Of a DNA stretch of 25,944 nt, positions 3,812-20,071 are shown in pieces. The notes under the pieces are model-generated. The model was not told the DNA's origin, did not search any database, and worked only from the letters and a program-made list of their open reading frames with translations. Every line of letters starts with the position of its first letter. The stretch's first letter is position 1. The stretch is taken from the IMG/VR virus record IMGVR_UViG_3300001680_000538, positions 1-25,944 of that record. One strand, given 5' to 3'. Source of the stretch: a virus. Both the position numbers and the translations under genes were made by a program.

Positions 3812-4074
3812 GAGTATTACATAAGAATGTGTTGATTGAACAGATTGAGATTGAAAAAGAAACCGTAACAGACTCAGGGTTAATTTTAACAGGAACATCT
3901 GAAGAAGGAATGTTCCAAAAGGCTAAGATTATCTCAGTTGGAGATAAAGTTGAAAGCGCTATGAAACCAGGTGATATTGCATTAGTATTAAAGGGTTCAG
4001 CTCAAGCAGTTAAGGGAGATGATGGGATAGAGTACCTACTTGTTGCTGATAGCAACATTGCAGCTATTCTGTAA
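3808..4074 (+). CDS. groES: GroES-type co-chaperonin
   Basis: 88 residues, the size of Cpn10. The order RVLHKNVLIEQIE, a mobile-loop-like segment (TDSGLILTGTSEEG), KAKIISVGDK, MKPGDIALV and a final YLLVADSNIAAIL follows bacterial GroES closely. T4 replaces GroES with the unrelated-looking gp31 to fold its major capsid protein in GroEL; a true GroES homologue here probably plays that role. Coupling by ATGA to gene 55 and by TAATG to the next gene places it in the late-switch operon, ready before capsid synthesis. Confidence 0.85.
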   Translation: MRVLHKNVLIEQIEIEKETVTDSGLILTGTSEEGMFQKAKIISVGDKVESAMKPGDIALVLKGSAQAVKGDDGIEYLLVADSNIAAIL

Positions 4075-4823
4075 TGAAAATAGGGATTGTAGGTTACGGT
4101 GTTCTAGGTAGAGCTGTATATGATGCTTTAAAGAATCATCATGATCTATTGATTATTGATCCGCCAGCTGGATATGGAGTTGGTATGCAATTTGGTTTAG
4201 ATGGTTATATATTATGCTTACCTACTCCTCAAGGAGATGATGGAGAGTGTGATTACTCTTTAGTTGAGTTCTATTTAGATCATATATCCAATTATGACTA
4301 CCCCACTAAAATTTTAGTTAAGAGTACTGTACCTCCAATTGATCTATGTGGGTTAGAGGAATTATATGATTTCACATATTCCCCAGAATTCCTAAGAGCT
4401 GAAAGTAGCATTGAAGATTTTAAACAACAAGACTTTGCTATATTCGCAGGTCACAATCCTGAATTCTGGTTTAAGTTATTAGCTAATGCTGACGTTGAAT
4501 TCGAGCAGGTTAAGTTTACTACTATACGTACAGCTGCCTATATCAAGTATGCTATTAATACGTTTCTTGCAACTAAGGTAACATTCTTCAATGAATTAGA
4601 AGCTTTGTTTGCAGGTGATTTCCTTGAACTAACTAATTGTATATCATTAGATTCACGTATAGGTGATAGTCATATGCAAGTACCTGGTCCTGATGGAAGA
4701 AGGGGATATGGTGGTATGTGCTTCCCTAAAGACACTAAGGCATTTGCTAAATATGCTAGGGATCAAGGTAAGCCATTAGAGCTTTTAGAGAAGGCAATTG
4801 AAATAAACGAGAAGATACGATGA
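4074..4823 (+). CDS. UDP-glucose/GDP-mannose 6-dehydrogenase-like protein, short form
   Basis: 249 residues. It shows the NAD-binding GIVGYGVLG motif at the N-terminus, LPTPQ, KSTVPP, SPEFLRAE, the central helix KYAINTFLATKVTFFNE and GRRGYGGMCFPKD. The last contains the catalytic cysteine of the family, which oxidises a nucleotide sugar at C6 (for example UDP-glucose to UDP-glucuronate). Full-length enzymes have roughly 390-450 residues; here the C-terminal sugar-nucleotide-binding domain is absent, and the frame ends just after the catalytic loop and one helix. It may use a shorter substrate or work with the two following sugar-nucleotide genes, to which it is coupled by overlap. Family certain, substrate unknown. 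Confidence 0.8.
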   Translation: MKIGIVGYGVLGRAVYDALKNHHDLLIIDPPAGYGVGMQFGLDGYILCLPTPQGDDGECDYSLVEFYLDHISNYDYPTKILVKSTVPPIDLCGLEELYDFTYSPEFLRAESSIEDFKQQDFAIFAGHNPEFWFKLLANADVEFEQVKFTTIRTAAYIKYAINTFLATKVTFFNELEALFAGDFLELTNCISLDSRIGDSHMQVPGPDGRRGYGGMCFPKDTKAFAKYARDQGKPLELLEKAIEINEKIR

Positions 4824-5521
4824 TAGGATTTACATGCAGCTCATTTGATCTATTACATGCAGGACATGTTGAGATGTTGAAAGAGTGTAAAGAGAATTGT
4901 GATAAACTAATTGTAGGATTGAATACTAATCCGATTAAACATGGCAAGTATCCAGTGCAGAATGTTGTAGAGCGATACTCCCAGTTATCTGCTATTAAGT
5001 ATGTTGATGAGATTATTCCTTATGCAACTGAAGCTGATTTAAGAGATCTGCTTAATCTATACCATATTGATATTAGATTTATTGGTGAAGATTATAAAGG
5101 GCGAGAGTTCACTGGTGATGATTTACCAATTGAAATCTTCTTCAATTCCAGACAACATGGATTCTCCACCAGTATATTAAAAGATAGAGTTATAAATCAG
5201 AAAGAAATCCTTGACGGGAATACAATTAAAGATACTGACACTTATAGGCTAATTGATAATACAACCCTTAATGAACTAACAGTATCAACTACAACATTAC
5301 ATCCTGATAAATCAACACGGGGTCATAGTCACGACAATCAAGAAGAAGTATATCATTTTCTATCAGGAGTTGGATTAATGTTAATCGATGATAATGAATA
5401 CTATGCAGAAGCTGGTAAAACATTTACCATTTCCGCCGGGCAATTTCATAAAGTAACTAACACAAGTCATCATGATGACCTAGCATTCTTTTGTGTATTT
5501 TCAGGAGGAAGAAACCATTAA
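4820..5521 (+). CDS. Cytidylyltransferase-cupin fusion protein
   Basis: 233 residues in two domains. Residues 1-130 form a glycerol-3-phosphate cytidylyltransferase-like nucleotidyltransferase, with HAGH at 13-16 and the STSILKDR signature at 117-124; such enzymes couple CTP to a phosphorylated polyol or amino alcohol. Residues about 145-233 form a cupin: GHSHDNQEE supplies H169, H171 and a glutamate, and H210 (GQFH) completes the usual metal set, as in sugar isomerases and dehydratases. The domain fusion is seen directly; that it makes or edits an activated sugar together with the flanking dehydrogenase and epimerase is inference from context. ATGA overlap couples it to the upstream gene. 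Confidence 0.75.
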   Translation: MIGFTCSSFDLLHAGHVEMLKECKENCDKLIVGLNTNPIKHGKYPVQNVVERYSQLSAIKYVDEIIPYATEADLRDLLNLYHIDIRFIGEDYKGREFTGDDLPIEIFFNSRQHGFSTSILKDRVINQKEILDGNTIKDTDTYRLIDNTTLNELTVSTTTLHPDKSTRGHSHDNQEEVYHFLSGVGLMLIDDNEYYAEAGKTFTISAGQFHKVTNTSHHDDLAFFCVFSGGRNH

Positions 5522-6239
5522 TATTTTAATGACAGGAAGTGATGGATACATAGGTTCACATCTAAAAGTAGTTTTACGAGATAATGGATATCATGTTAAT
5601 GAGTATCCAGGTGACGTTAGAGAAATTACAACAATGGCGTTTATTGATATTGATATGGTCATTCATTTGGCAGGTCAAGCGGGGGTTAGGGCATCATTTG
5701 ATCAACCAGAATTCTATTATGACAACAATGTTAATGGATCTAAAGCAATATTCAAAGCAACATATAAGTTAGACCTCCCTATAATATACACATCATCATC
5801 TAATGCAGCCGAATGGTGGACTAATCCATATGCTACAACTAAAAAGATAATGGAAGAAATCGCTCCTTTCAATTCACTTGGTATAAGACCACACACAGTG
5901 TATCCTGGCAGAGAAGACATGTTGTACTGTAGATTGAAGAACGACGTTAATTCAGTTGGTTATATCAACGGAGAGCACACAAGAGACTTCACTCATATTG
6001 AAGATTTTTGCTCTGCCCTGTTGACTTTAGTGGAGAACTATAGTATAATAGATGATAAGGTAGTCGATATTGGAACTGGTAAACCTACAAGAACATTAGA
6101 TGTAGCCAGGTCATTTGGGTGGGATGGAATAGTAAGATGGAATTCAACACCGAAAGAAAGAACGCATACCAAAGCTGATATAACATTATTAACCAAACTT
6201 GGATGGTCACCAAAACATGAAATTTGCAATACTAAATGA
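5517..6239 (+). CDS. NAD-dependent epimerase/dehydratase (extended SDR), probable ATT start
   Basis: About 240 residues, shorter than typical 310-350-residue family members. Visible are the cofactor loop GSDGYIGSHL, HLAGQAGV, TSSS and the catalytic YATTK (YxxxK), then HTRDFTHIEDFCSAL and DIGTGKPT, all standard in UDP-glucose 4-epimerase-type enzymes. Start choice is unusual: AGGAGG at 5503-5508 sits 8 nt before ATT at 5517, giving INILMTGSDG, the expected first strand. GTG at 5493 would put the ribosome site inside the gene, and ATG at 5529 cuts the strand and is 20 nt from the site. It overlaps the end of the cupin fusion and the start of gene 47 and completes a three-gene sugar-nucleotide block. 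Confidence 0.8.
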   Translation: MNILMTGSDGYIGSHLKVVLRDNGYHVNEYPGDVREITTMAFIDIDMVIHLAGQAGVRASFDQPEFYYDNNVNGSKAIFKATYKLDLPIIYTSSSNAAEWWTNPYATTKKIMEEIAPFNSLGIRPHTVYPGREDMLYCRLKNDVNSVGYINGEHTRDFTHIEDFCSALLTLVENYSIIDDKVVDIGTGKPTRTLDVARSFGWDGIVRWNSTPKERTHTKADITLLTKLGWSPKHEICNTK

Positions 6240-7275
6240 TACACACTGTGGAGTAAGAAATTCGTCAGAAATCTTTATGGAATACCAAAGGAAGTTCTAT
6301 GAAGATATATTCTTTCCGTATTGTAGAGATAATGATATCAAACAAGTAGTACACTTAGGTGATTACTACGACCATCGCAAGAACATTAATTTTAAAGCAC
6401 TAAACTATAACAGACAGATATTCTTAGAGCCATTACGAGATAATGGTATGACTATGGATATCATTCCTGGTAACCATGATGTGTTTCATAAGAATACTAA
6501 TGAGCTGTGTTCCCTTAAAGAGCTGTTAGGATACTATACATCTAATGTTAATATCTTCATGAAGCCAACTACTGTTACATATGATGGTGTTGATATTAAC
6601 TTCCTACCATGGATCAATAAAGATAACTATGACACGTCTATGAGATTTGTTAGGGATAATGATGGTATCTTATTAGGTCATTTAGAGATAGAAGGATGTG
6701 AAGTATTGAAAGGATTCAAGAGTCCTCATGGAATGAGTTCTAAATTATTCAAACACTATGATACGGTATTGACAGGACACTATCACACAAAGAGCCAAAA
6801 ACAAACTATTAGGTATTTGGGAAGTCAAATGGAGTTTACATGGAATGATGCCCATGATCCAAAACACTTTCACATTTTTGATACCGACACACTTGAGATA
6901 ACTCCAGTGCTTAATCCAATCACCTTATTTGAAAAGGTACATTATAATGATAGTGCTAGAGACTATACTGATTATGATGTAACCCATTTAAAAGATAAAT
7001 TCGTAAAGGTAATAGTTGATAAGAAGACTAATCCCTTTATGTTTGACAAATTTATTGATAAGATAGCAGTAATTAATACTCATGAACTAAAGATAGTTGA
7101 GAACTTCCAAGAGTTCTTAGGTGAGAATGTTAAGACTGATCTCGAGTCAATAGATAACACAACAGAGTTAATGAGTACATATGTCGATTCTGTATCAACA
7201 GATTTAGATAAGAATAAGATTAAAGTACTGATGAATTCACTATATAATGAAGCAATCAATGAGGAAATACAATAA
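6217..7275 (+). CDS. 47: Recombination endonuclease subunit gp47 (Mre11/SbcD-like)
   Basis: 352 residues from ATG 6217 (T4 gp47 has 339). Phosphoesterase motifs are in order: NDTHCG, HLGDYYDHR, IPGNHD, LLGHLEIEG and TGHYH, which bind the two catalytic metal ions. With gp46 it forms the Mre11-Rad50-type complex that resects DNA ends for recombination-dependent replication. A TTG at 6199 would add six residues; the ATG matches the family start. It overlaps the upstream epimerase by 23 nt. Unusually, a secreted-protein gene separates it from gene 46. Confidence 0.93.
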   Translation: MKFAILNDTHCGVRNSSEIFMEYQRKFYEDIFFPYCRDNDIKQVVHLGDYYDHRKNINFKALNYNRQIFLEPLRDNGMTMDIIPGNHDVFHKNTNELCSLKELLGYYTSNVNIFMKPTTVTYDGVDINFLPWINKDNYDTSMRFVRDNDGILLGHLEIEGCEVLKGFKSPHGMSSKLFKHYDTVLTGHYHTKSQKQTIRYLGSQMEFTWNDAHDPKHFHIFDTDTLEITPVLNPITLFEKVHYNDSARDYTDYDVTHLKDKFVKVIVDKKTNPFMFDKFIDKIAVINTHELKIVENFQEFLGENVKTDLESIDNTTELMSTYVDSVSTDLDKNKIKVLMNSLYNEAINEEIQ

Positions 7276-7661
7276 TGAAACACGAAAAAATTAAACTAGC
7301 AATGCTAACTACATTAATCGTAGGGGTATGGTTTATGTTCCCAGCAACAACATTAGCATCACACCACGAACGACACGCAGTAAGTACTCATCAATTTAAT
7401 ATTGATGATGCAATGAATAATAAGGATATAGTATTGCTAGCAATTGGTACTGCCGTATACTATAAAGAATACTGTGCAGGACTAACTAATATTGGTATGT
7501 CGTACCTCAATAAAGCTATTGCTAAACACAAGATAAATGTACACACAATGTCTAAAGAACAACAATATAAAGTTGGCTATAAACTAGCAGAAGGTTACCC
7601 AACATGCGGTAAGCTTAGATTTGCAATTTCAGATGCAGGTCTTGGAGCTATGATTCGATGA
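7275..7661 (+). CDS. Secreted or periplasmic protein of unknown function between genes 47 and 46
   Basis: 128 residues. The N-terminus has a textbook Sec signal peptide: basic KHEKIK, hydrophobic LAMLTTLIVGVWFMF, then a plausible cleavage site after TTLA near residue 28. The mature part is small and mostly helical, with only two cysteines (YCAGL and TCGKL), suited to one disulfide in the periplasm. No family is recognised; the pattern of a short helical domain with two cysteines recalls periplasmic inhibitor or lysis-accessory proteins, but that is only an analogy. It overlaps both neighbours (TAATG with 47, ATGA with 46), so it is made in step with two cytoplasmic nuclease subunits, which is odd for an exported protein. 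Confidence 0.7.
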   Translation: MKHEKIKLAMLTTLIVGVWFMFPATTLASHHERHAVSTHQFNIDDAMNNKDIVLLAIGTAVYYKEYCAGLTNIGMSYLNKAIAKHKINVHTMSKEQQYKVGYKLAEGYPTCGKLRFAISDAGLGAMIR

Positions 7662-9349
7662 TAGAGTTTGTATCGGTTGAATATAAGAATTTCTTATCAG
7701 CAGGTGCTAATTCAATTAAGATTGATTTAAACAGAGCTAAGTCAACTTTAATTGTAGGGCATAATGGCGCAGGTAAGTCATCTATATTAGACGCATTATC
7801 ATTTGGTTTATTTGGTAAGCCACATAGAAGTGTATCTAAAGCTCAATTGATTAATTCAGTTAACCTTAAAGGTGCTGAAGTAGATGTCCAATTCAAAGTA
7901 GCAGGACATTCATTCGAAGTTAAAAGAGGTATTAAGCCTAATAAGTTTGAGATATGGCAGGACGGATCAATGATTGATCAAACGTCTAATGCCAGAGACT
8001 ATCAGAAGTTCTTAGAACAGAACATTTTGAAACTCAACCATAAGTCATTCCACCAGATTGTAGTACTCGGATCATCTTCATTCATTCCGTTTATGCAATT
8101 ACCTACTAACCATAGAAGGGAAGTAATCGAAGACTTATTAGATATTAATATTTTTAGTAAGATGAAGAATATCATTAAGGAGCGTTCTTCTTCTATCAGA
8201 AGTTTGGCGAAAGAAGAGAAATCATCACTTGATGTACATAAGGGTAAGTTTGATTACCAAGAGAAGTATATTAGGAAGATGGAGTCTTTAAATAAAGAAG
8301 CAGAGGAAGATGTTGAATCGACTAACAAGGGGATTGATGTTCAAATAACATCATTGATGAAAGAAGGCATTAGTTTAAACGATAGCCTTAGTTCATATAC
8401 ATCTAATGCTCAAGAACAACTTGCTGAACTTCAAGAGATTAGAGATAATCTGAGGTCACAAATGACAGAAGTCAAAGTAGCTATAGAACACACTACAGAA
8501 GAGCATATGTTTTATATGAACAATGATTCGTGTCCTACATGTACTCAAGATATTACTCAAGAGTTGAAAGATGATAGGGTAGCTACAATCAAAGATGGTG
8601 CTAAGATACTACTTAAAGCTCGTACTGAAGTTACTGATGAGCAGGAAGAGAATAGACTATACATCGAAGCAATTCAAGCAGATCTTAAAGAGATTGCATT
8701 AATTGGTAATACGATGTCTAAGATTCAAAGTCAAATCGAACAATTGAAAGCATCTAAACGTAAAGTAGTAGATGCAGTAGATTTAGCGAGCGCTTACACG
8801 GAACTTAAAGACTTACAAACTAAAGCAGATGAATGTAGGGATCAGTTAGATGAATATAATGAGAAGATGTTATATAATGGTGTAGCATCTGAAATGTTAA
8901 AGGATACAGGTATTCGTACTAAGGTTGTTAAGGAGTACTTACCAGCAATGAATATGTTAATCAATCAATACTTACAAACACTAGACTTCTTCGTATCATT
9001 CAATCTTGATGAGAGCTTTAATGAGACTATCAGAAGCCGTCATAGAGACACATTTGTATATGCAAATTTCTCTGAAGGTGAGAAGCAACGTATCGATTTA
9101 GCATTACTATTTGCATGGCGTAAGATTGCTCAAATGAAGAATTCAACTAACACAAACTTATTGATTCTGGATGAGACATTTGATTCATCATTAGATACAG
9201 ATGGAGTTGATAATCTAATGAAGATACTGTATCATTTAGATGATAATACTAATACATTCGTAATCAGTCACAAACCAGACTTACTTGAGTCTAAGTTAGA
9301 TAAGAAGATTACATTTAAGAAACCTAATAACTTCTCTATGATAGCGTGA
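7658..9349 (+). CDS. 46: Recombination endonuclease subunit gp46 (Rad50/SbcC-like ATPase)
   Basis: 563 residues, matching T4 gp46 (560). It has Walker A GHNGAGKSS near residue 35, a long helical coiled-coil middle interrupted by a zinc hook CPTC near residue 291, the ABC signature FSEGEKQR near 471, Walker B LLILDETFDSSLD and a final switch histidine region VISHK. It is the ATPase partner of gp47 for DNA end processing. The gene starts by ATGA overlap with the secreted protein and ends by GTGA overlap with the small membrane protein. Confidence 0.95.
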   Translation: MIEFVSVEYKNFLSAGANSIKIDLNRAKSTLIVGHNGAGKSSILDALSFGLFGKPHRSVSKAQLINSVNLKGAEVDVQFKVAGHSFEVKRGIKPNKFEIWQDGSMIDQTSNARDYQKFLEQNILKLNHKSFHQIVVLGSSSFIPFMQLPTNHRREVIEDLLDINIFSKMKNIIKERSSSIRSLAKEEKSSLDVHKGKFDYQEKYIRKMESLNKEAEEDVESTNKGIDVQITSLMKEGISLNDSLSSYTSNAQEQLAELQEIRDNLRSQMTEVKVAIEHTTEEHMFYMNNDSCPTCTQDITQELKDDRVATIKDGAKILLKARTEVTDEQEENRLYIEAIQADLKEIALIGNTMSKIQSQIEQLKASKRKVVDAVDLASAYTELKDLQTKADECRDQLDEYNEKMLYNGVASEMLKDTGIRTKVVKEYLPAMNMLINQYLQTLDFFVSFNLDESFNETIRSRHRDTFVYANFSEGEKQRIDLALLFAWRKIAQMKNSTNTNLLILDETFDSSLDTDGVDNLMKILYHLDDNTNTFVISHKPDLLESKLDKKITFKKPNNFSMIA

Positions 9350-9567
9350 ATAAATTATTAGAGCAAGTAGGCGCAGTCACTGGCATATTTGGTGCTATCC
9401 TAATTGCAGCTAACTTCGAATACTCTAAATGGGGATTCGTAGCATTCGTTATTTCAAGTGCTTGCTTAGCTGTGATGGGATATCGTAAGGGAATGTATTC
9501 ATTCTTTGGAATGCAATTGTTCTTTCAAGTGATCAACTTCGTAGGAATATATCGGTGGTTTTTATAA
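9346..9567 (+). CDS. Small multi-pass membrane protein
   Basis: 73 residues starting at GTG, overlapping the gene 46 stop (GTGA). Three hydrophobic stretches (VGAVTGIFGAILIAANF, WGFVAFVISSACLAVMG and FFGMQLFFQVINFVGIYRWF) fill nearly the whole protein. The layout with a charged YRKGMYS turn resembles half of a PnuC or PQ-loop/SemiSWEET-type transporter, which works as an oligomer, but the identification is weak. It ends the operon that begins at gene 55. Confidence 0.6.
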   Translation: MNKLLEQVGAVTGIFGAILIAANFEYSKWGFVAFVISSACLAVMGYRKGMYSFFGMQLFFQVINFVGIYRWFL

Positions 9568-9586: not shown

Positions 9587-9615
9587 TTGCCTTTTCTTCC
9601 CTTTTAGAGTATAAT
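9587..9615 (+). promoter_or_regulatory. Sigma70-type promoter for the HEXXH-VWA operon
   Basis: TTGCCT (9587-9592), 17 bp, TATAAT (9610-9615). The segment 9608-9625 (AGTATAATGTAATTATAA) is identical to 12223-12240 in the promoter of the partner AAA+ gene, suggesting matched expression. A 32-nt leader contains AAAGGGA before ATG 9648. Confidence 0.75.
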
Positions 9616-9647
9616 GTAATTATAACAATCAAAAAGGGAACAAAGAA

Positions 9648-9872
9648 ATGAAGAAAATTACAGACACAGTTATACAGGCTATATGGGCTGAATCAAATAT
9701 CGACAAGAAGAAATCATTACTAGTCGAATTAGTTAACAACTTTCAATATAAAGCAAAGCAAGTACATTTCCTTGAGGCTATCGATAAAGCTAAGTCATTA
9801 GCTCGCCTCGATAAGTTATCTGCTGATTTGTTACTAGTTGGTGATGGTCACCGTATTGTTAAAACATACTAG
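9648..9872 (+). CDS. Small conserved-type phage protein, unknown
   Basis: 74 residues, soluble and helical: VIQAIWAESNIDKKKSLLVELVNNF, followed by a lysine-rich segment and LARLDKLSADLLLVGDGHRIV. I recall similar short proteins in T4-like cyanophages beside the VWA gene, but no function is recognised. It is first in its operon, 14 nt before the HEXXH-VWA gene, and follows a strong promoter. A helper of the neighbouring protein is possible but not shown. Confidence 0.6.
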   Translation: MKKITDTVIQAIWAESNIDKKKSLLVELVNNFQYKAKQVHFLEAIDKAKSLARLDKLSADLLLVGDGHRIVKTY

Positions 9873-9886
9873 AAGGAGTTTATATT

Positions 9887-11986
9887 ATGAATTTAAAAGC
9901 ACAAGATTACTTAGCCAAGTTACTCGCGAAGGAAAACCTTACGGTACAACATGGCAATTATAAGACAGCATCATTCGATGTTATCAATCGTGTATTGAGA
10001 CTTCCATTATGGGCTGACAAAGGTAAAGCTGTTTACGACTTACTAGTTGGACACGAAGTTGGACACGCATTATATACACCTGCTGACGGATGGCACGATT
10101 CAGATAAGACTATCCCAGGTGTACCACGCTCTTACATCAACATTGTAGAAGACATTAGAATTGAAAAGAAAATCCAGGTTACATACCCTGGAATCGTTCG
10201 TTCATTTAAGAAAGGTTATAAGACACTATTTGACGACAACCTATTCGGTACTGAAGGTAAAGATATATCTAAATACGGTCTTATGGACCGTTTGAATATC
10301 TTTGCAAAAGGACGTGGATGTATCGACATTGAGTTTTCAGCTGATGAGCAACCATTAGTTGATCAAGCCATGGCCGTTGAGACTTGGGAAGATGTTTTAG
10401 AATCATGTCAAGCTCTTAACGAATTTGTTAAAGCTAAACCAGAAGAGGAAAAAGAAAATGAAGATGAGACAGAGTCTTTACAAAGCCCAGAGGGTGAGGG
10501 AGAAACGGAAGAAGAAGGAGAAGAAAGCGGAATGTCTCAAGATGGTTCAGGAGATGATGAAGATGATTCAGAAGGTACTGAAGGACAATCGAGATCTGTA
10601 GAGGATGACGATTCTGATACCCTTACTGATGATGCTCAAAGAGATAATGAAGGGTCATTACTTGATAAGAATGAAAGAGGTATTCAAGACCGCTATTGTG
10701 CTGGAATCCACTCTGAAGACATTAAGTTAATGGTAACAAAGTTCGAAGAGCTTTTCAAGCAACGTAATGATGAATTTCACAGTATTCGTTACAATGGTAC
10801 AGGTGCTGAAAAATTCTACAAAGATATTGCTGATAAGATCAAACCTGTTGTAGGTCAAATGGCCCGTGAGTTTGAACGTAAGAAAGCTGCTTGGGAATAT
10901 GCAAGAAGTGCGGAAGCTAAGACTGGTTCATTAAACGTCAATAAGCTTCACCAGTACAAATATTCTGAAGATATCTTCTTGTCTGTTCAACAACTTGCCC
11001 AAGCTAAGAGCCACGGTATTGTTATGTTTGTGGACTTATCAGGTTCAATGGGAAACATCTTAGAAGACGTTATTCGTCAGACACTTACGATTGCTCAGTT
11101 TTGTGATAGAGTTAATATCCCATTTGAGGTTTACACATTCACTTCAGGTGCTAACGGTGTTCAAAAAGATGAATACAAACTTGGTCCTTCAACACTAGCA
11201 GGAGCTGTTCGAACTAAGATTGTTGAAGTTCTTTCATCAAGAATGAACAAGAAACAGTTTAAAGACGCTTGCAGACAACTTTCAACTGTTGGTGTTGCTT
11301 CATGGAAGTTGGCCGAAGACCCAAGTGTCCGTATGCAGTGGGATTGTGAGTTAGATCAAATGGGTTCTACACCACTTCTTCAAACAATGATTGCTTCTGC
11401 TGATATCATCACTTCTTTCCAAAAACGAAATGGTGTTCAAAAGACAAACGTAATTGTCCTGACGGACGGTTGGGCTGATAGCATTCACATCAATTCTGAT
11501 GATAATATTTCAGTTGATACGGGTCGTGAATGGGATGAGACATACTCTATTAATTTCAAAGGTAAGATGATCAAGGGTAAAGATACTCAAACCTTACTTG
11601 CTGGTGTTGTTAAAGCCGTTGGTAAGTATACTAATTCAAACATGCTTGGTTTCTACCTTGCTGATGATAAGGGTTCATTCTACCAAGGTTTACGATACGC
11701 AAGAAGTGCTGATAAGAAAGGATTATACAGTTCAGTGGAGAGTGAGAAGCAACGTAAGGATTTCCTAAAAAATGGTGTGACAGCAATGTCCAACAAAGCT
11801 GGATACGATGAATTCTTTATCATTAAGATTGCTACTCGCCGAGAGCTTGAGAATCGTACTGAGTCATTCGAACCAAAGAAGACTGAAGCGATTAAAGATA
11901 TTAAACGTGAGTTCCGTAAGTTTAGTAAGGGTAATAAGCACACCCGTCAATTAGTTAATAAAATCACAGATGCGGTTGCCGCATAA
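9887..11986 (+). CDS. HEXXH metallopeptidase-like protein with von Willebrand A domain (CobT-like)
   Basis: 699 residues. The N-terminal part has HEVGH at 56-60, a zinc-metallopeptidase motif, and NIVEDIRIEKKI near 86-96, where an acidic third ligand would be expected. Residues about 183-268 are a very acidic Glu/Asp/Ser linker. The C-terminal part is a von Willebrand A domain with an intact metal site D383-L-S-G-S-M and LTDGWAD. In phage genomes such proteins are often labelled CobT beside CobS, but the acidic linker, VWA domain and AAA+ partner at 12264 fit the wider MoxR-VWA type of protein-remodelling system. The metallopeptidase domain suggests it may also cut proteins. Substrate unknown. 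Ribosome site AAGGAG with the TTTATATT spacer. Confidence 0.8.
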   Translation: MNLKAQDYLAKLLAKENLTVQHGNYKTASFDVINRVLRLPLWADKGKAVYDLLVGHEVGHALYTPADGWHDSDKTIPGVPRSYINIVEDIRIEKKIQVTYPGIVRSFKKGYKTLFDDNLFGTEGKDISKYGLMDRLNIFAKGRGCIDIEFSADEQPLVDQAMAVETWEDVLESCQALNEFVKAKPEEEKENEDETESLQSPEGEGETEEEGEESGMSQDGSGDDEDDSEGTEGQSRSVEDDDSDTLTDDAQRDNEGSLLDKNERGIQDRYCAGIHSEDIKLMVTKFEELFKQRNDEFHSIRYNGTGAEKFYKDIADKIKPVVGQMAREFERKKAAWEYARSAEAKTGSLNVNKLHQYKYSEDIFLSVQQLAQAKSHGIVMFVDLSGSMGNILEDVIRQTLTIAQFCDRVNIPFEVYTFTSGANGVQKDEYKLGPSTLAGAVRTKIVEVLSSRMNKKQFKDACRQLSTVGVASWKLAEDPSVRMQWDCELDQMGSTPLLQTMIASADIITSFQKRNGVQKTNVIVLTDGWADSIHINSDDNISVDTGREWDETYSINFKGKMIKGKDTQTLLAGVVKAVGKYTNSNMLGFYLADDKGSFYQGLRYARSADKKGLYSSVESEKQRKDFLKNGVTAMSNKAGYDEFFIIKIATRRELENRTESFEPKKTEAIKDIKREFRKFSKGNKHTRQLVNKITDAVAA

Positions 11987-11995
11987 GGAGAAAAT

Positions 11996-12157
11996 ATGTT
12001 AGATGGATACCCAGATGCGAAGAAGCATCAGATAATTAGTTTCATTAAATCAGGATTGAGATTTGTAGGGTACGCAGCCCTTCCATTTTCAATCATTGTT
12101 GGTGCCGCCCTGCTTATCCTAGCAGAGGTACTTGGTGTTGTGGAGGAACTAGTTTGA
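11996..12157 (+). CDS. Small single-span membrane protein
   Basis: A 53-residue frame with a perfect AAGGAG 5 nt upstream of ATG, 9 nt after the HEXXH-VWA gene. It has a short charged N-terminus (MLDGYPDAKKHQ), one long hydrophobic stretch (about 23-48, GYAALPFSIIVGAALLILAEV) and an acidic tail (VVEELV). It lies between the metallopeptidase-VWA gene and its AAA+ partner, so it may anchor or signal to that system at the membrane; this is inference from position only. Confidence 0.65.
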   Translation: MLDGYPDAKKHQIISFIKSGLRFVGYAALPFSIIVGAALLILAEVLGVVEELV

Positions 12158-12201
12158 ATGATACCCACATTTTAAAGAAGGGTTTATGCTGTAAATAATT
12201 G

Positions 12202-12230
12202 TTGACATTTTGACCGTTATACAGTATAAT
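12202..12230 (+). promoter_or_regulatory. Sigma70-type promoter for the AAA+ ATPase gene
   Basis: TTGACA (12202-12207), 17 bp, TATAAT (12225-12230): perfect consensus in both boxes. The start region repeats 18 bp of the promoter at 9587. The leader ends in AAAGGATATATATT before ATG 12264. Confidence 0.88.
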
Positions 12231-12263
12231 GTAATTATAAACAATTGAAAAAGGATATATATT

Positions 12264-13415
12264 ATGAATTTACAAAAAGTACTAAAGTCTATCGCTGACA
12301 CATACGTTGATCAGTCTAATTTCACATTAAAAGAATTCGATGCTGTTGCATCTAAACTTGGTTATGGTAAGTATGCTGTTGCCAATCAATTCAGAAAGTT
12401 TCCAAAAGTAAGTAGAGGTATTTACAACCTTGAAGCTGCTTTGATTCCATTTCGTTCAATTGAAACATCTAACACTGTTGTTCAAAACGTTGGTGTTTCA
12501 TCTGTTTCAAATGATGAAGTTTACATCCCTGAAAAGGATGACACTTTTGTTGAGTGGGGTAACTTCAGAGACATCTTGAAGATTGTTAAGTCATATGAAT
12601 TCTACCCAACATATGTTACCGGTCTATCTGGTAATGGTAAAACATTCATGATCGAACAAGCTTGTGCAAAAGCTGGTCGTGAATATGTTCGTGTTCAGAT
12701 TTCACCTGAAACTGACGAAGATGATTTAATCGGTGGTTTCCGTTTGATTCAAGGAGAGACTGTTTTCCAGAAGGGACCAGTTATTAAAGCAATGGAGCAA
12801 GGTGCTTTACTTCTTATCGATGAGATCGATCGTGGAACAAATAAGATTATGGCTCTCCAAGGTGTTTTAGAAGGTAAGCCAATTCTTATCAAAAAGACTG
12901 GTGAAGTAATCAAACCAGCAAAGGGTTTCAATGTAATCTCTACTGCTAATACAAAGGGTAAAGGTTCTGATGATGGACGTTACACTGCTGCTACAATCAT
13001 TGATGAAGCATTCCTTGAGCGTTTCACAATCACTGTTGAACAGAAGTATCCATCTGCCTCAATCGAGAAGAAAATCTTATTGAAGCACATGGAGAAGTTT
13101 AACTGTGTTGATGATGAGTTTGCAAACCTTCTTGTTGGATGGGCTGATACGATTCGTAAGACATTCGAAGATGAAGGTATTGATGAAGTGATTTCAACAC
13201 GTCGTCTTTGTCACATCATTCAGACGTTCTCTATCTTCGGCAAACGAGACAAAGCAGTTGAGCTTTGTGTGAATCGTTTTGATGATGATACTAAAGAGTC
13301 ATTCATCGATCTTTACTCTAAAGTTGACGCTACTGTCACTTACGGTGAAGAAGAGTTAGTTGAGTCTTTAGTTGCTGAAGATGTTCAAGTGCCGTACGCA
13401 GAGTACAAACTTTAA
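12264..13415 (+). CDS. MoxR/CobS-like AAA+ ATPase
   Basis: 383 residues. After an N-terminal region of about 100 residues with an unrecognised fold come Walker A GLSGNGKT near 120-127, the MoxR-type segment SPETDEDDLIGGF, Walker B LLLIDEIDR near 184, a sensor-like STANTKGKG, and EAFLERFT with the arginine finger region. Similar phage ATPases are widely labelled CobS (cobaltochelatase), yet no cobalamin gene is near. Pairing with a VWA-domain protein at 9887 is the hallmark of MoxR systems, in which the ATPase drives the VWA partner to remodel or mature a target. It has its own consensus promoter rather than sharing an operon with the partner. Confidence 0.85.
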   Translation: MNLQKVLKSIADTYVDQSNFTLKEFDAVASKLGYGKYAVANQFRKFPKVSRGIYNLEAALIPFRSIETSNTVVQNVGVSSVSNDEVYIPEKDDTFVEWGNFRDILKIVKSYEFYPTYVTGLSGNGKTFMIEQACAKAGREYVRVQISPETDEDDLIGGFRLIQGETVFQKGPVIKAMEQGALLLIDEIDRGTNKIMALQGVLEGKPILIKKTGEVIKPAKGFNVISTANTKGKGSDDGRYTAATIIDEAFLERFTITVEQKYPSASIEKKILLKHMEKFNCVDDEFANLLVGWADTIRKTFEDEGIDEVISTRRLCHIIQTFSIFGKRDKAVELCVNRFDDDTKESFIDLYSKVDATVTYGEEELVESLVAEDVQVPYAEYKL

Positions 13416-13481: not shown

Positions 13482-14144
13482 ATGATGCAATTAAGTAATG
13501 AAACTGTAGATGTATTAAAGAATTTTGCTGTGATTAACAGTAACATCGCATTTACCACGGACCAGACACTCAAGACTGTTGCAGTGTCTAAGAACCTTAT
13601 GGCCAAAGCAACAGTCACTGAAACATTCCCATATGAGTTTGGGGTATATGATTTACCTGAGTTCTTATCAGCGATGAGTATGTTTGACAATCCAGAATTA
13701 ACATTCGACGATAGTCAAAAGTTTGTCACTCTATCTGATAATGACGCTTCAATCAAGTACTTCTTCTCAGATGTGAATAACCTGGTAACAGCAAAGAACG
13801 AACCAAAGTTACCTGATGTCGTACTGACATTCACTCTATCTGCACAACAGTTAAATTCTATTCGAAAAGCATCAGCTGCTTTAAAGGTAGATCATCTTGT
13901 TGTTACAGTTGATAACAATGGTGTGAATGTTACTGTAACTGACCCAAAGAATGCTACATCTAATGAATTTAGATTGAGTGTTCAAGGGTCAGCTAAAAAC
14001 TCAACTGCTGATACAAACTTCAAGTTTAATATCAACAACTTTAAGTTTAATGTAAGTGATAAATATACCTTTGAGGTATCATCAAAAAACATTGCATCTG
14101 TAATGTCAAGTGATACTCAATATTGGTTAGCTTTAGAAAAATAA
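13482..14144 (+). CDS. 45: Sliding clamp gp45
   Basis: 220 residues (T4 gp45 has 228). The N-terminus QLSNETVDVLKNFAVINSNI followed by the YDLPEFL strand matches the T4 clamp (KLSKDTTALLKNFATINSGI, YDLNGFL). gp45 forms a trimeric ring that tethers the polymerase and co-activates late transcription with gp55 and gp33. Two adjacent ATG codons (13482 and 13485) are both possible; AAGGAG at 13471 fits either. Two small genes separate it from gene 44, unlike in T4. Confidence 0.92.
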   Translation: MMQLSNETVDVLKNFAVINSNIAFTTDQTLKTVAVSKNLMAKATVTETFPYEFGVYDLPEFLSAMSMFDNPELTFDDSQKFVTLSDNDASIKYFFSDVNNLVTAKNEPKLPDVVLTFTLSAQQLNSIRKASAALKVDHLVVTVDNNGVNVTVTDPKNATSNEFRLSVQGSAKNSTADTNFKFNINNFKFNVSDKYTFEVSSKNIASVMSSDTQYWLALEK

Positions 14145-17389: not shown

Positions 17390-18954
17390 GCATATTAGCA
17401 CTGCTAGCCGGTGTATTTTATGGATTGATAATTGGTATTATACCATCGGCAGGAGCAACAACTGGATTAGTATTACTCTTCCCATTCGTGGGATTGCTAG
17501 CTAGTGTGGATCCATATCTAGCTGTAATATTCATAACAGCAGTTGTTGCTTCATCTACTACTGGTGATACATTCGCTTCAGTCTTATTAGGAATACCAGG
17601 AGCTAATTCATCTGCTGCTACAATGGTTGATGGATTCCCATTAGCTCAACAAGGAAAAGCAACATATGCATTATCTGCTGCTATTACAACATCGACTGTT
17701 AATGGATTGTTTTACGGATCGTTAGTATTCTTCTTATTGCCATTCTATCACGACTTTGTAATACTACCTCCAATTGATGGGGGCATAGGACAAGCAGAGA
17801 TGTTTGCATTATGCGTTCTAGCTTTTGTTACAGTAGGTTTCATATCAAATTCCAATTGGATTAAGTCTTTGATGGGACTATCGTTAGGTGTTGGATTAGC
17901 AATGATAGGAACGGATCCTATTACTGCTGAACCTAGGTTCACGATGGGGTGGGACTTCTTAATAGGTGATGGAGTGGGAAAGGGTATAAGCCTCATACCA
18001 TTATTAGCAGGTGTATTTGCTATGCCTGAAATGATATTAGCATTACGAAACAAAGTACTACTATCAAGTAGTACAAACATTGACCACGACAAACAAGTAC
18101 GAGATGGGATACGCGTTTCATTTAAAGAGTGGAAGTTATCATTGAGAGGTGGATTTATTGGATCAGTAATTGGGTTTCTTCCTGGATTAGGTGGAGCTAT
18201 TTCTGATTGGTTAGCATACGGATCAACTGTAGCATCTAATCCAAATGAGAAGATACCATTTGGAAAAGGAAACATTAAAGGAGTGATTGGACCTGAAGGT
18301 TCTAACAATGCTCAAAAGGCAACTTCATTCATTCCTACTGTGTTGTTTGGAATTCCTGGAGCTCCATTTGCAGCAATTGTAATAGGATTATTTTCTATTA
18401 TAGGATTTGATTTATCATTAGATACAGTATCAATTGCTAATGATACGAAGTTCTTTGACTCATTGTCATTTGCGTTTCTCGGATCAACATTAGTAACTGG
18501 CATTATATGTTTGGTATTAATGAAGTACTTAACCGCAATTGCATACGTTCCATACAAGTATTACTTTCCAGTTATAGTTCTATTTGTAGGTTGGTCTGTG
18601 TGGGTATCAGGATTTGGTACATATGGATTAGAGAGCCTATTAATATTAGTAGTATTTACGTTATTAGGATTAGGTATGAAGACCTATGGTTTCTCCAGGC
18701 CTGCATTAATGATTGGATTCATATTAGGAGATAAGATAGAGCTATTAGGTCTTCAAGTATTGAGCATGTATAACATAGGTGGATATGCTCTTATAAATAT
18801 AATTCAAGATGATGTGGGACAAGGCAGGCTCAATGTATCATTAGGATATGGGAAAGACCTGCTTGACCATCCAGCATTTTTAGTTATATCATCATTGATT
18901 GTTTTGACGATGATATATAGTTATAGAAACAAAGGTAGTATTGATTATTCGTAA
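17386..18954 (+). CDS. tctA: TctA-like large permease of a tripartite tricarboxylate transporter
   Basis: 522 residues, full length for the family (about 500), with roughly 11-12 hydrophobic spans. Diagnostic segments are GIIPSAGATTGLVLLFPFV, SVLLGIPGANSSAATMVDGFPLAQQGKATYAL, GFLPGLGGAISDWLAYG and GPEGSNNAQKATSFIPTVLFGIPGAP, the repeated PG-loop and ANNA-type motifs of TctA. With a periplasmic receptor (TctC) and a small subunit (TctB) it imports citrate-like or other carboxylic acids using the ion gradient. TctC follows 12 nt later; no TctB is present here. The gene is intact, with no frameshift, and its base usage resembles its neighbours, so it does not look like a recent or decaying passenger. 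Confidence 0.87.
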   Translation: MSILALLAGVFYGLIIGIIPSAGATTGLVLLFPFVGLLASVDPYLAVIFITAVVASSTTGDTFASVLLGIPGANSSAATMVDGFPLAQQGKATYALSAAITTSTVNGLFYGSLVFFLLPFYHDFVILPPIDGGIGQAEMFALCVLAFVTVGFISNSNWIKSLMGLSLGVGLAMIGTDPITAEPRFTMGWDFLIGDGVGKGISLIPLLAGVFAMPEMILALRNKVLLSSSTNIDHDKQVRDGIRVSFKEWKLSLRGGFIGSVIGFLPGLGGAISDWLAYGSTVASNPNEKIPFGKGNIKGVIGPEGSNNAQKATSFIPTVLFGIPGAPFAAIVIGLFSIIGFDLSLDTVSIANDTKFFDSLSFAFLGSTLVTGIICLVLMKYLTAIAYVPYKYYFPVIVLFVGWSVWVSGFGTYGLESLLILVVFTLLGLGMKTYGFSRPALMIGFILGDKIELLGLQVLSMYNIGGYALINIIQDDVGQGRLNVSLGYGKDLLDHPAFLVISSLIVLTMIYSYRNKGSIDYS

Positions 18955-18965
18955 ATGGAGATAAG

Positions 18966-20042: not shown

Positions 20043-20071
20043 TTGACATTCGACCTGAATTACAGTATAAT
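20043..20071 (+). promoter_or_regulatory. Sigma70-type promoter for the queE-queD-folE operon
   Basis: TTGACA (20043-20048), 17 bp, TATAAT (20066-20071). It is followed by the AT-rich ATAATTATA start region common to several promoters here and by AAGGAAGG before ATG 20106. Confidence 0.87.

Follow-up and report, generated by a model that had tools for sequence, protein, structure and literature searches.

A MoxR-type ATPase and a VWA protein with a conserved zinc-peptidase motif in a T4-like phage: kin of CobS and CobT, probably not a cobalt chelatase

Two adjacent genes of a T4-like marine phage raise the question of whether the CobS/CobT label often given to such genes describes what they do. 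The pair lies at 9887-13415 of the IMG/VR virus record IMGVR_UViG_3300001680_000538 (hereafter the window, which is the entire 25,944-base record) and encodes a zinc-peptidase/VWA protein and a MoxR/CobS-type AAA+ ATPase. In the literature, 'cobS' belongs to the core genes of T4-like marine cyanophages, serves as an ecological marker and is listed among the auxiliary metabolic genes for vitamin B12 (PMC9983427, PMC3037559), and the 'peptidase' label of its partner has been called a mistake (PMC8651126). Our conservation data contradict the latter statement, in that the peptidase site is kept and it is the chelatase label that fails. If this is true, many auxiliary-metabolism claims need revision, and a large class of mobile elements, drug-resistance plasmids among them, would possess an ATP-driven protease that has gone unstudied and has E57 as its key residue. 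The two genes, and the domains of the first protein, are located as follows.

9887..11986, + strand: zinc-peptidase/VWA protein, 699 aa (phrog_459 'peptidase'; distant CobT homologue)
9887..10435, + strand: N-terminal gluzincin-like domain, residues 1-183 (motif conservation, fold matches)
10436..10672, + strand: acidic low-complexity linker, residues 184-262 (composition, model disorder)
10688..11983, + strand: VWA domain with preceding helices, residues 268-699 (fold matches)
12264..13415, + strand: MoxR/CobS-type AAA+ ATPase, 383 aa (phrog_249)

Conservation of the peptidase and VWA motifs

A preliminary description of this DNA, made from the sequence alone, had proposed that a single protein combines an HEVGH metallopeptidase motif, a long acidic linker and a VWA domain with an intact metal site, and that a MoxR-like AAA+ ATPase follows; both proposals hold. 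HEVGH occupies residues 56-60 on helix 47-63, the linker has 34 D/E vs 5 K/R among its 79 residues, and the metal ion-dependent adhesion site (MIDAS) of the VWA domain is complete (D383-x-S385-x-S387, T495 and D527). A second motif, N85xxE88D89xR91xE93, lies on helix 81-99, such that the HExxH motif is accompanied by a conserved downstream glutamate, as in gluzincins; E88 or E93 is a candidate third zinc ligand. The protein matches phrog_459 'peptidase' over its full length (E = 4.6e-159). The ATPase carries the Pfam domain AAA_5 (E = 2.5e-19), a Walker A motif (GLSGNGKT), a Walker B motif (LLLIDEID) and an N-terminal extension of ~75 aa specific to phages, matches phrog_249 'porphyrin biosynthesis' over its full length (E = 8.8e-113), and has CobS, NorQ, CbbQ and Midasin as its sequence matches in the PDB. 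The window pair shows two features of MoxR-VWA systems, a MoxR/AAA_5 ATPase carrying both Walker motifs and, beside it, a VWA protein whose MIDAS is complete.

We identified relatives of the peptidase-VWA protein in 463 GenBank phage records, mostly of Synechococcus and Prochlorococcus phages, all at less than 60% identity and with the best isolates ~33% identical to the window protein. Among 71 relatives from IMG/VR, whose median pairwise identity is 31%, strict invariance holds at 34 of the 699 positions. Those kept in 71/71 sequences include H56, E57, H60, N85, E88, D89, R91 and E93 in the N-domain, and D383, S385, S387, T495 and D527 in the MIDAS. The middle positions of HExxH vary (HEVGH, HEVSH, HETGH, HEISH, HECGH), with H, E and H fixed. 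The first IMG/VR scan used the HEVGH pattern, and its count of 75/80 is unable to prove conservation; the 5 loci seemingly without the motif carry HECGH or HETGH. Because this first set of relatives had been found in part by that pattern, we repeated the IMG/VR search with patterns from the VWA half only, which gave 80 loci. All 73 loci with a complete N-terminus keep HExxH followed by NxxEDxR (73/73), and in the remaining 7 the N-terminus is cut by contig ends. In Pseudoalteromonas phage vB_Psh_XG4 (L005, 5676-7918), the VWA protein and an HEVSH peptidase are separate adjacent open reading frames (ORFs), VWA first, upstream of the ATPase gene and gp45; the ATPase frame appears broken in this unverified record.

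An AlphaFold2 model of the peptidase-VWA protein, built on the 71-row alignment, has a mean predicted local distance difference test score (pLDDT) of 80.6, and residues 186-243 are predicted to be disordered. Because VWA matches swamped a fold search with the whole model, the N-domain was folded alone (pLDDT 85.3). Its predicted structure has a three-strand sheet and two helices, one with HEVGH and the other with NxxEDxRxE. Zinc peptidases make up almost all of its top matches in the PDB, at moderate Z values of 4.8-6.4 (Foldseek E of about 0.1): Ste24 (Z = 6.4), abylysin (Z = 6.3) and ArdC (Z = 6.2), and also BlaR1, selecase, BepA and PprI. CobT was not among the solved matches listed for the N-domain, which carries no weight either way. 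As modelled, the N-domain resembles gluzincins (Ste24, BepA, selecase/abylysin and BlaR1, and the DNA-linked ArdC and PprI) in its HExxH helix, glutamate-bearing helix and small beta-sheet, and differs from them in having no sequence match, in being fused to a VWA domain and in being coupled to an AAA+ ATPase. For the VWA half, the best solved match is the NorD VWA domain bound to the MoxR ATPase NorQ (Z = 17.9), followed by the Midasin MIDAS domain (Z = 17.0). The window pair resembles NorQ-NorD, RavA-ViaA and Midasin in joining a MoxR AAA+ ATPase to a MIDAS-type VWA domain; we know of no zinc-peptidase domain in the partners of those systems.

The combination itself is already known. A MoxR-vWA pair with an N-terminal metallopeptidase was described in group 2.2 jumbo phages (Iyer et al. 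2021, PMC7824862; ASV44729/ASV44728); judged by the published description, it has the same metallopeptidase-vWA order with the MoxR gene adjacent, but it belongs to jumbo phages and came with a virion-assembly proposal, whereas the window pair stands in the replication module of a T4-like marine phage. The long-known core genes of T4-like cyanophages (phrog_459 and phrog_249 in S-PM2, HTVC008M and others) have the same order, gp46-peptidase-ATPase-gp45, and nothing functional sets the window pair apart from those of these isolates. The present analysis seems to add three things, namely the unbiased test of conservation, the relationship to an apparently dead CobT, and the replication/recombination context shared across phages, phage-plasmids, conjugative plasmids and ICEs; in a partial coverage of the literature, we found no paper joining the three.

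Relationship to cobaltochelatase

A study of archaeal tailed viruses (2021, PMC8651126) took the pair for a viral cobaltochelatase, a CobS-CobT that hijacks the host's CobN for cobalamin. The homology on which this proposal draws is true, and the window proteins do match the CobT and CobS equivalog models, but at scores far under the cut-offs (25.7 bits vs 759.05 for CobT TIGR01651, and 67.8 vs 558.55 for CobS TIGR01650). A CobN-family gene in the cyanobacterium Synechococcus elongatus also speaks for the proposal. Against it, we found no CobN in 12 carrier phage/plasmid records, in the window record or in the carrier genome G341, which holds an SXT-type copy. As the preliminary description had it for the vicinity of the pair, no cobalamin gene was found in the window. 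HExxH, kept in the mobile forms, is present in 0/98 cellular CobT proteins (Alphaproteobacteria). In the ATPase tree, cellular CobS proteins form one clade (100/100) and T4-like CobS proteins another (100/99), separated by long branches and with an uncertain deep order. To our knowledge, the hosts E. coli and V. cholerae have no de novo aerobic corrin synthesis, which likewise counts against a chelatase.

Ancestry is a different matter. The AAA+ and VWA parts of CobNST are homologous to those of the phage pair, and the N-domains can be linked stepwise. In hhalign comparisons, the T4-type N-domain aligns to the SSU5-type (E = 4e-13) and to the IncC-type (8e-11), and these in turn align to the N-domain of cellular CobT (SSU5-type 1e-5 over 114 columns, IncC-type 6e-5). 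The direct alignment of T4-type to CobT is not significant (E = 0.11), so that homology between these two rests on the chain via SSU5 or IncC. The SSU5-type/CobT alignment retains the ExxRxE part, with HExxH lost in CobT, and the SSU5 and IncC relatives, with HExxH intact, pass the Pfam cut-off for CobT (PF06213), which also speaks for the chelatase proposal. Judged from these alignments, the T4-type, SSU5/IncC and CobT forms look like one superfamily in which cellular CobT is a catalytically dead branch; the direction of change, that CobT lost the site, is suggested by the finding that the intact site is so widespread among mobile elements. CobNST thus differs from the phage pair in the lost HExxH, in the absence of CobN from the examined carriers of the phage pair and in its separate CobS clade. 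The CobS/CobT label is therefore wrong for function and right for ancestry: the preliminary description, in which such pairs are often mislabelled, is supported on the first point and needs amending on the second.

Genomic context and promoters

In the window, the two-gene set is placed between gp46 and gp45 inside a T4-like core block.

778 (start): UvsY-like
1197 (start): UvsW-like helicase
3218 (start): late sigma
6199-7275: gp47, upstream of gp46
7658..9349, + strand: gp46 recombination nuclease, upstream of the pair
13482..14144, + strand: sliding clamp gp45, 3' of the ATPase gene
14681 (start): gp44, after gp45
15616 (start): gp62, after gp44
15998 (start): RegA, after gp62

The arrangement recurs in related viral loci. 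The ATPase gene follows the peptidase-VWA gene in 51/59 and precedes it in 3 more (adjacent in 54/59), the next recognised gene after the ATPase is gp45 in 44/47, and the nearest recognised upstream gene is gp46 in 48/60. Replication or recombination genes also flank the pair elsewhere. In SSU5 and Stenotrophomonas phage BUCTxx99, a helicase/primase gene lies upstream and DNA polymerase III alpha just downstream; in Rhizobium, Klebsiella and Pseudomonas phages, the pair is upstream of DNA polymerase III alpha; and in ICP2, primase, helicase and DNA polymerase are downstream. In IncC, pSA20083039.1, Rts1 and one SXT-type integrative and conjugative element (ICE), ssb, bet/recT and exo are directly upstream. 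The pairs of the SSU5 phage-plasmid, ICP2 and IncC/SXT/Rts1 thus share with the window pair the HExxH-NxxED N-domain, acidic linker, VWA domain, MoxR ATPase and type of neighbour, but their identity to the window is <20%, the SSU5 forms have a different CobS N-terminus, and the IncC/SXT/Rts1 forms add a DUF3150 gene. In conjugative plasmids and ICEs, DUF3150 consistently accompanies the pair as a third gene (E = 5.9e-91 in IncC), whereas none caught our attention in the phage loci that we looked at. Its positions are:

7621-8898 of L225: DUF3150 gene
5575-6930 of L226: DUF3150 gene
17524-18957 of plasmid Rts1 (L306): DUF3150 gene

Matches to the IncC/SXT-type VWA protein occur in 2,329 plasmid records, of which the weak ones may cover the VWA domain only, and SSU5-type matches in 1,013. 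In chromosomes, a search for homologues of the T4 form gave weak matches in 8/299 Pseudomonadota genomes, and the one inspected chromosomal match with HExxH is an SXT-type ICE copy. In Rts1 (L306, 19030-22192), an IS2 transposase gene interrupts the VWA region beside MoxR and DUF3150, and this prototype IncT plasmid probably lacks a working VWA copy. The MoxR and VWA genes were not among the 32 conjugation genes of an Rts1 deletion study, a result that says little because of this split. Four viral loci (L069, L071, L090 and L094) have a peptidase-VWA gene and no ATPase gene detected within about 3-6 kb; in 3 of them, a second, 328-aa ORF with an HExxH string lies a few kb upstream.

The preliminary description also held that the two genes have promoters sharing an identical 18-bp start region, and that a one-span membrane protein stands between them. 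The identity is real: AGTATAATGTAATTATAA occurs at 9608-9625 and 12223-12240, and a third copy with 2 mismatches lies at 20064, against a chance expectation of 0.16 sites at <=3 mismatches. Each of the two copies is the -10 region of a promoter of sigma-70 type, with a spacer of 17 bp, but the upstream copy precedes a 74-aa ORF and not the peptidase gene directly. The membrane ORF is likewise present. The comparison of promoters and small ORFs took in 81 related viral loci, and neither the 53-aa membrane ORF nor the 74-aa ORF has a detectable relative there, which places both outside the conserved system.

9587..9615, + strand: sigma-70-like promoter TTGCCT-17-TATAAT, before the 74-aa ORF and then the peptidase-VWA gene
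9648-9872: 74-aa ORF, between the upstream promoter and the peptidase-VWA gene
11996-12157: 53-aa one-span membrane ORF, between the peptidase-VWA and ATPase genes
12202..12230, + strand: consensus sigma-70 promoter TTGACA-17-TATAAT, before the ATPase gene
13428: gp45 promoter TTGACT-17-TATAAT, of the same kind as those of the pair
14625: gp44 promoter, of the same sigma-70 kind

Copies of the T4 late motif TATAAATA are no more frequent in the window than expected by chance, and none is near the genes of the pair. Among the related loci, sigma-70-like sites are found 5' of cobS in 11/65 and 5' of the peptidase gene in 9/78 (random windows 3%), and the late motif in 0/65 and 1/78, respectively (random windows 2.3%). 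By these motifs, the promoters of the pair are sigma-70-like and not T4-late.

Possible functions of the pair

We tentatively read these direct observations (domain architecture, conserved peptidase and MIDAS residues, class of fold, gene pairing, genomic context, type of promoter and absence of CobN from carrier records) as an ATP-driven MoxR-VWA remodelling system, in which the VWA adaptor carries a catalytically competent-looking gluzincin-type peptidase and which would serve the replication or recombination of the element. The AAA+ ring (12264-13415) would dock the VWA domain in a physical complex, as in NorQ-NorD and CobS-CobT; the MIDAS metal site would grip an acidic residue of the substrate, as in Midasin; and ATP turnover would pull or twist the substrate. 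The zincin head, with its putative zinc and tethered by the flexible acidic linker, could then cleave an exposed segment. The target may be a protein, encoded by the element or by the host, at sites of DNA replication or recombination. Of the ATP-driven machine in the preliminary description, remodelling or cleavage remains the best mechanistic reading; 'protein maturation' we replace, as it brings virion maturation to mind and context and promoters point to the replication/recombination module. A bolder version, possible but doubtful, is that T4-like phages, phage-plasmids, IncC/Rts1 plasmids and SXT ICEs have in common an ATP-driven zinc protease acting at replicating or recombining DNA, a prokaryotic functional analogue of Cdc48-Wss1/Spartan-type clearance of proteins, with CobT as a derived dead branch.

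Several observations weigh against a replication-linked peptidase. HExxH is lost in phages hairong and BUCTxx99, and these natural losses indicate that a system deprived of its peptidase can still work, or can decay. The Z values of the N-domain fold matches stay below 8, and the predicted fold is for this reason supporting and not decisive. The argument from neighbouring genes is one of guilt by association, and most of the synteny among T4-like phages is inherited. No replication gene neighbours the pair in the Gordonia actinophages GodonK and Kvothe, no ATPase gene was detected close by in four loci, and in L034 (5800-8300) the gene stands between the capsid gene gp23 and gp3 with no ATPase nearby. 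T4 is reported to lack the pair, and cobS is listed as cyanophage-specific (PMC3037559), so that the pair is not essential to T4-type replication.

That the pair is a virion-assembly chaperone with a processing protease, helping to fold or assemble structural proteins that the zincin head trims, is unlikely in our view. This is the proposal made for jumbo phages by Iyer et al. (2021, PMC7824862), who cite a MoxR-VWA system needed for archaeal virus tail assembly, and the gp23-gp3 position in L034 would suit it. It is opposed by the sigma-70-like rather than T4-late promoters, by the presence in cyanophage S-PM2 of the pair plus its own gp21 prohead protease, and by the replication/recombination context in most lineages; these include plasmids and ICEs, which have no virion, and this weakens the proposal. 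Another improbable alternative is a counter-defence or host-takeover protease, directed at a defence or regulatory protein of the host that it cleaves or otherwise removes. The fold neighbours ArdC and PprI, DNA-linked zincins that act on restriction or a repressor, speak for it, as does the occurrence of the pair across phages, phage-plasmids, conjugative plasmids and ICEs and its rarity in sampled chromosomes. However, PADLOC gave no match to a known defence system beyond one weak MoxR match, and a position within the T4-like core replication block is unusual for accessory counter-defence genes.

We consider it very unlikely that the pair is only a chaperone or metal-insertion factor, whose zincin domain binds substrate or metal without proteolysis and which matures a metalloenzyme like NorQD. 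The closest VWA fold is NorD, a metal-insertion cofactor, and the losses in hairong and BUCTxx99 would be understandable, but the catalytic E57 is as invariant as both metal-binding histidines, and metal binding alone would not require E57. The chelatase-hijack proposal fails its testable features and is the least probable of all. In our reading, the pair is thus probably not a cobalt chelatase, and virion assembly is probably not its main task either.

Other genes in the window

A 73-aa ORF (9346-9567) resembles the PnuC nicotinamide mononucleotide transporter over family positions 3-66 of 175 only (E = 6.7e-8), and is possibly a mini or truncated PnuC. A three-gene sugar cassette at 4074-6239 encodes a UDP-glucose/GDP-mannose dehydrogenase, a cytidylyltransferase-cupin fusion and an NAD-dependent epimerase. 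Inserted between regA and a QueE-like gene, the segment 16424-20027 holds cargo unusual for a phage. It encodes an SbmA/BacA-like peptide transporter of the inner membrane (Pfam E = 9.5e-78), a complete TctA subunit of a tripartite tricarboxylate transporter (E = 3.2e-87), and, in a 353-aa ORF, a protein that appears to have a signal peptide and is without a Pfam or PHROG match.

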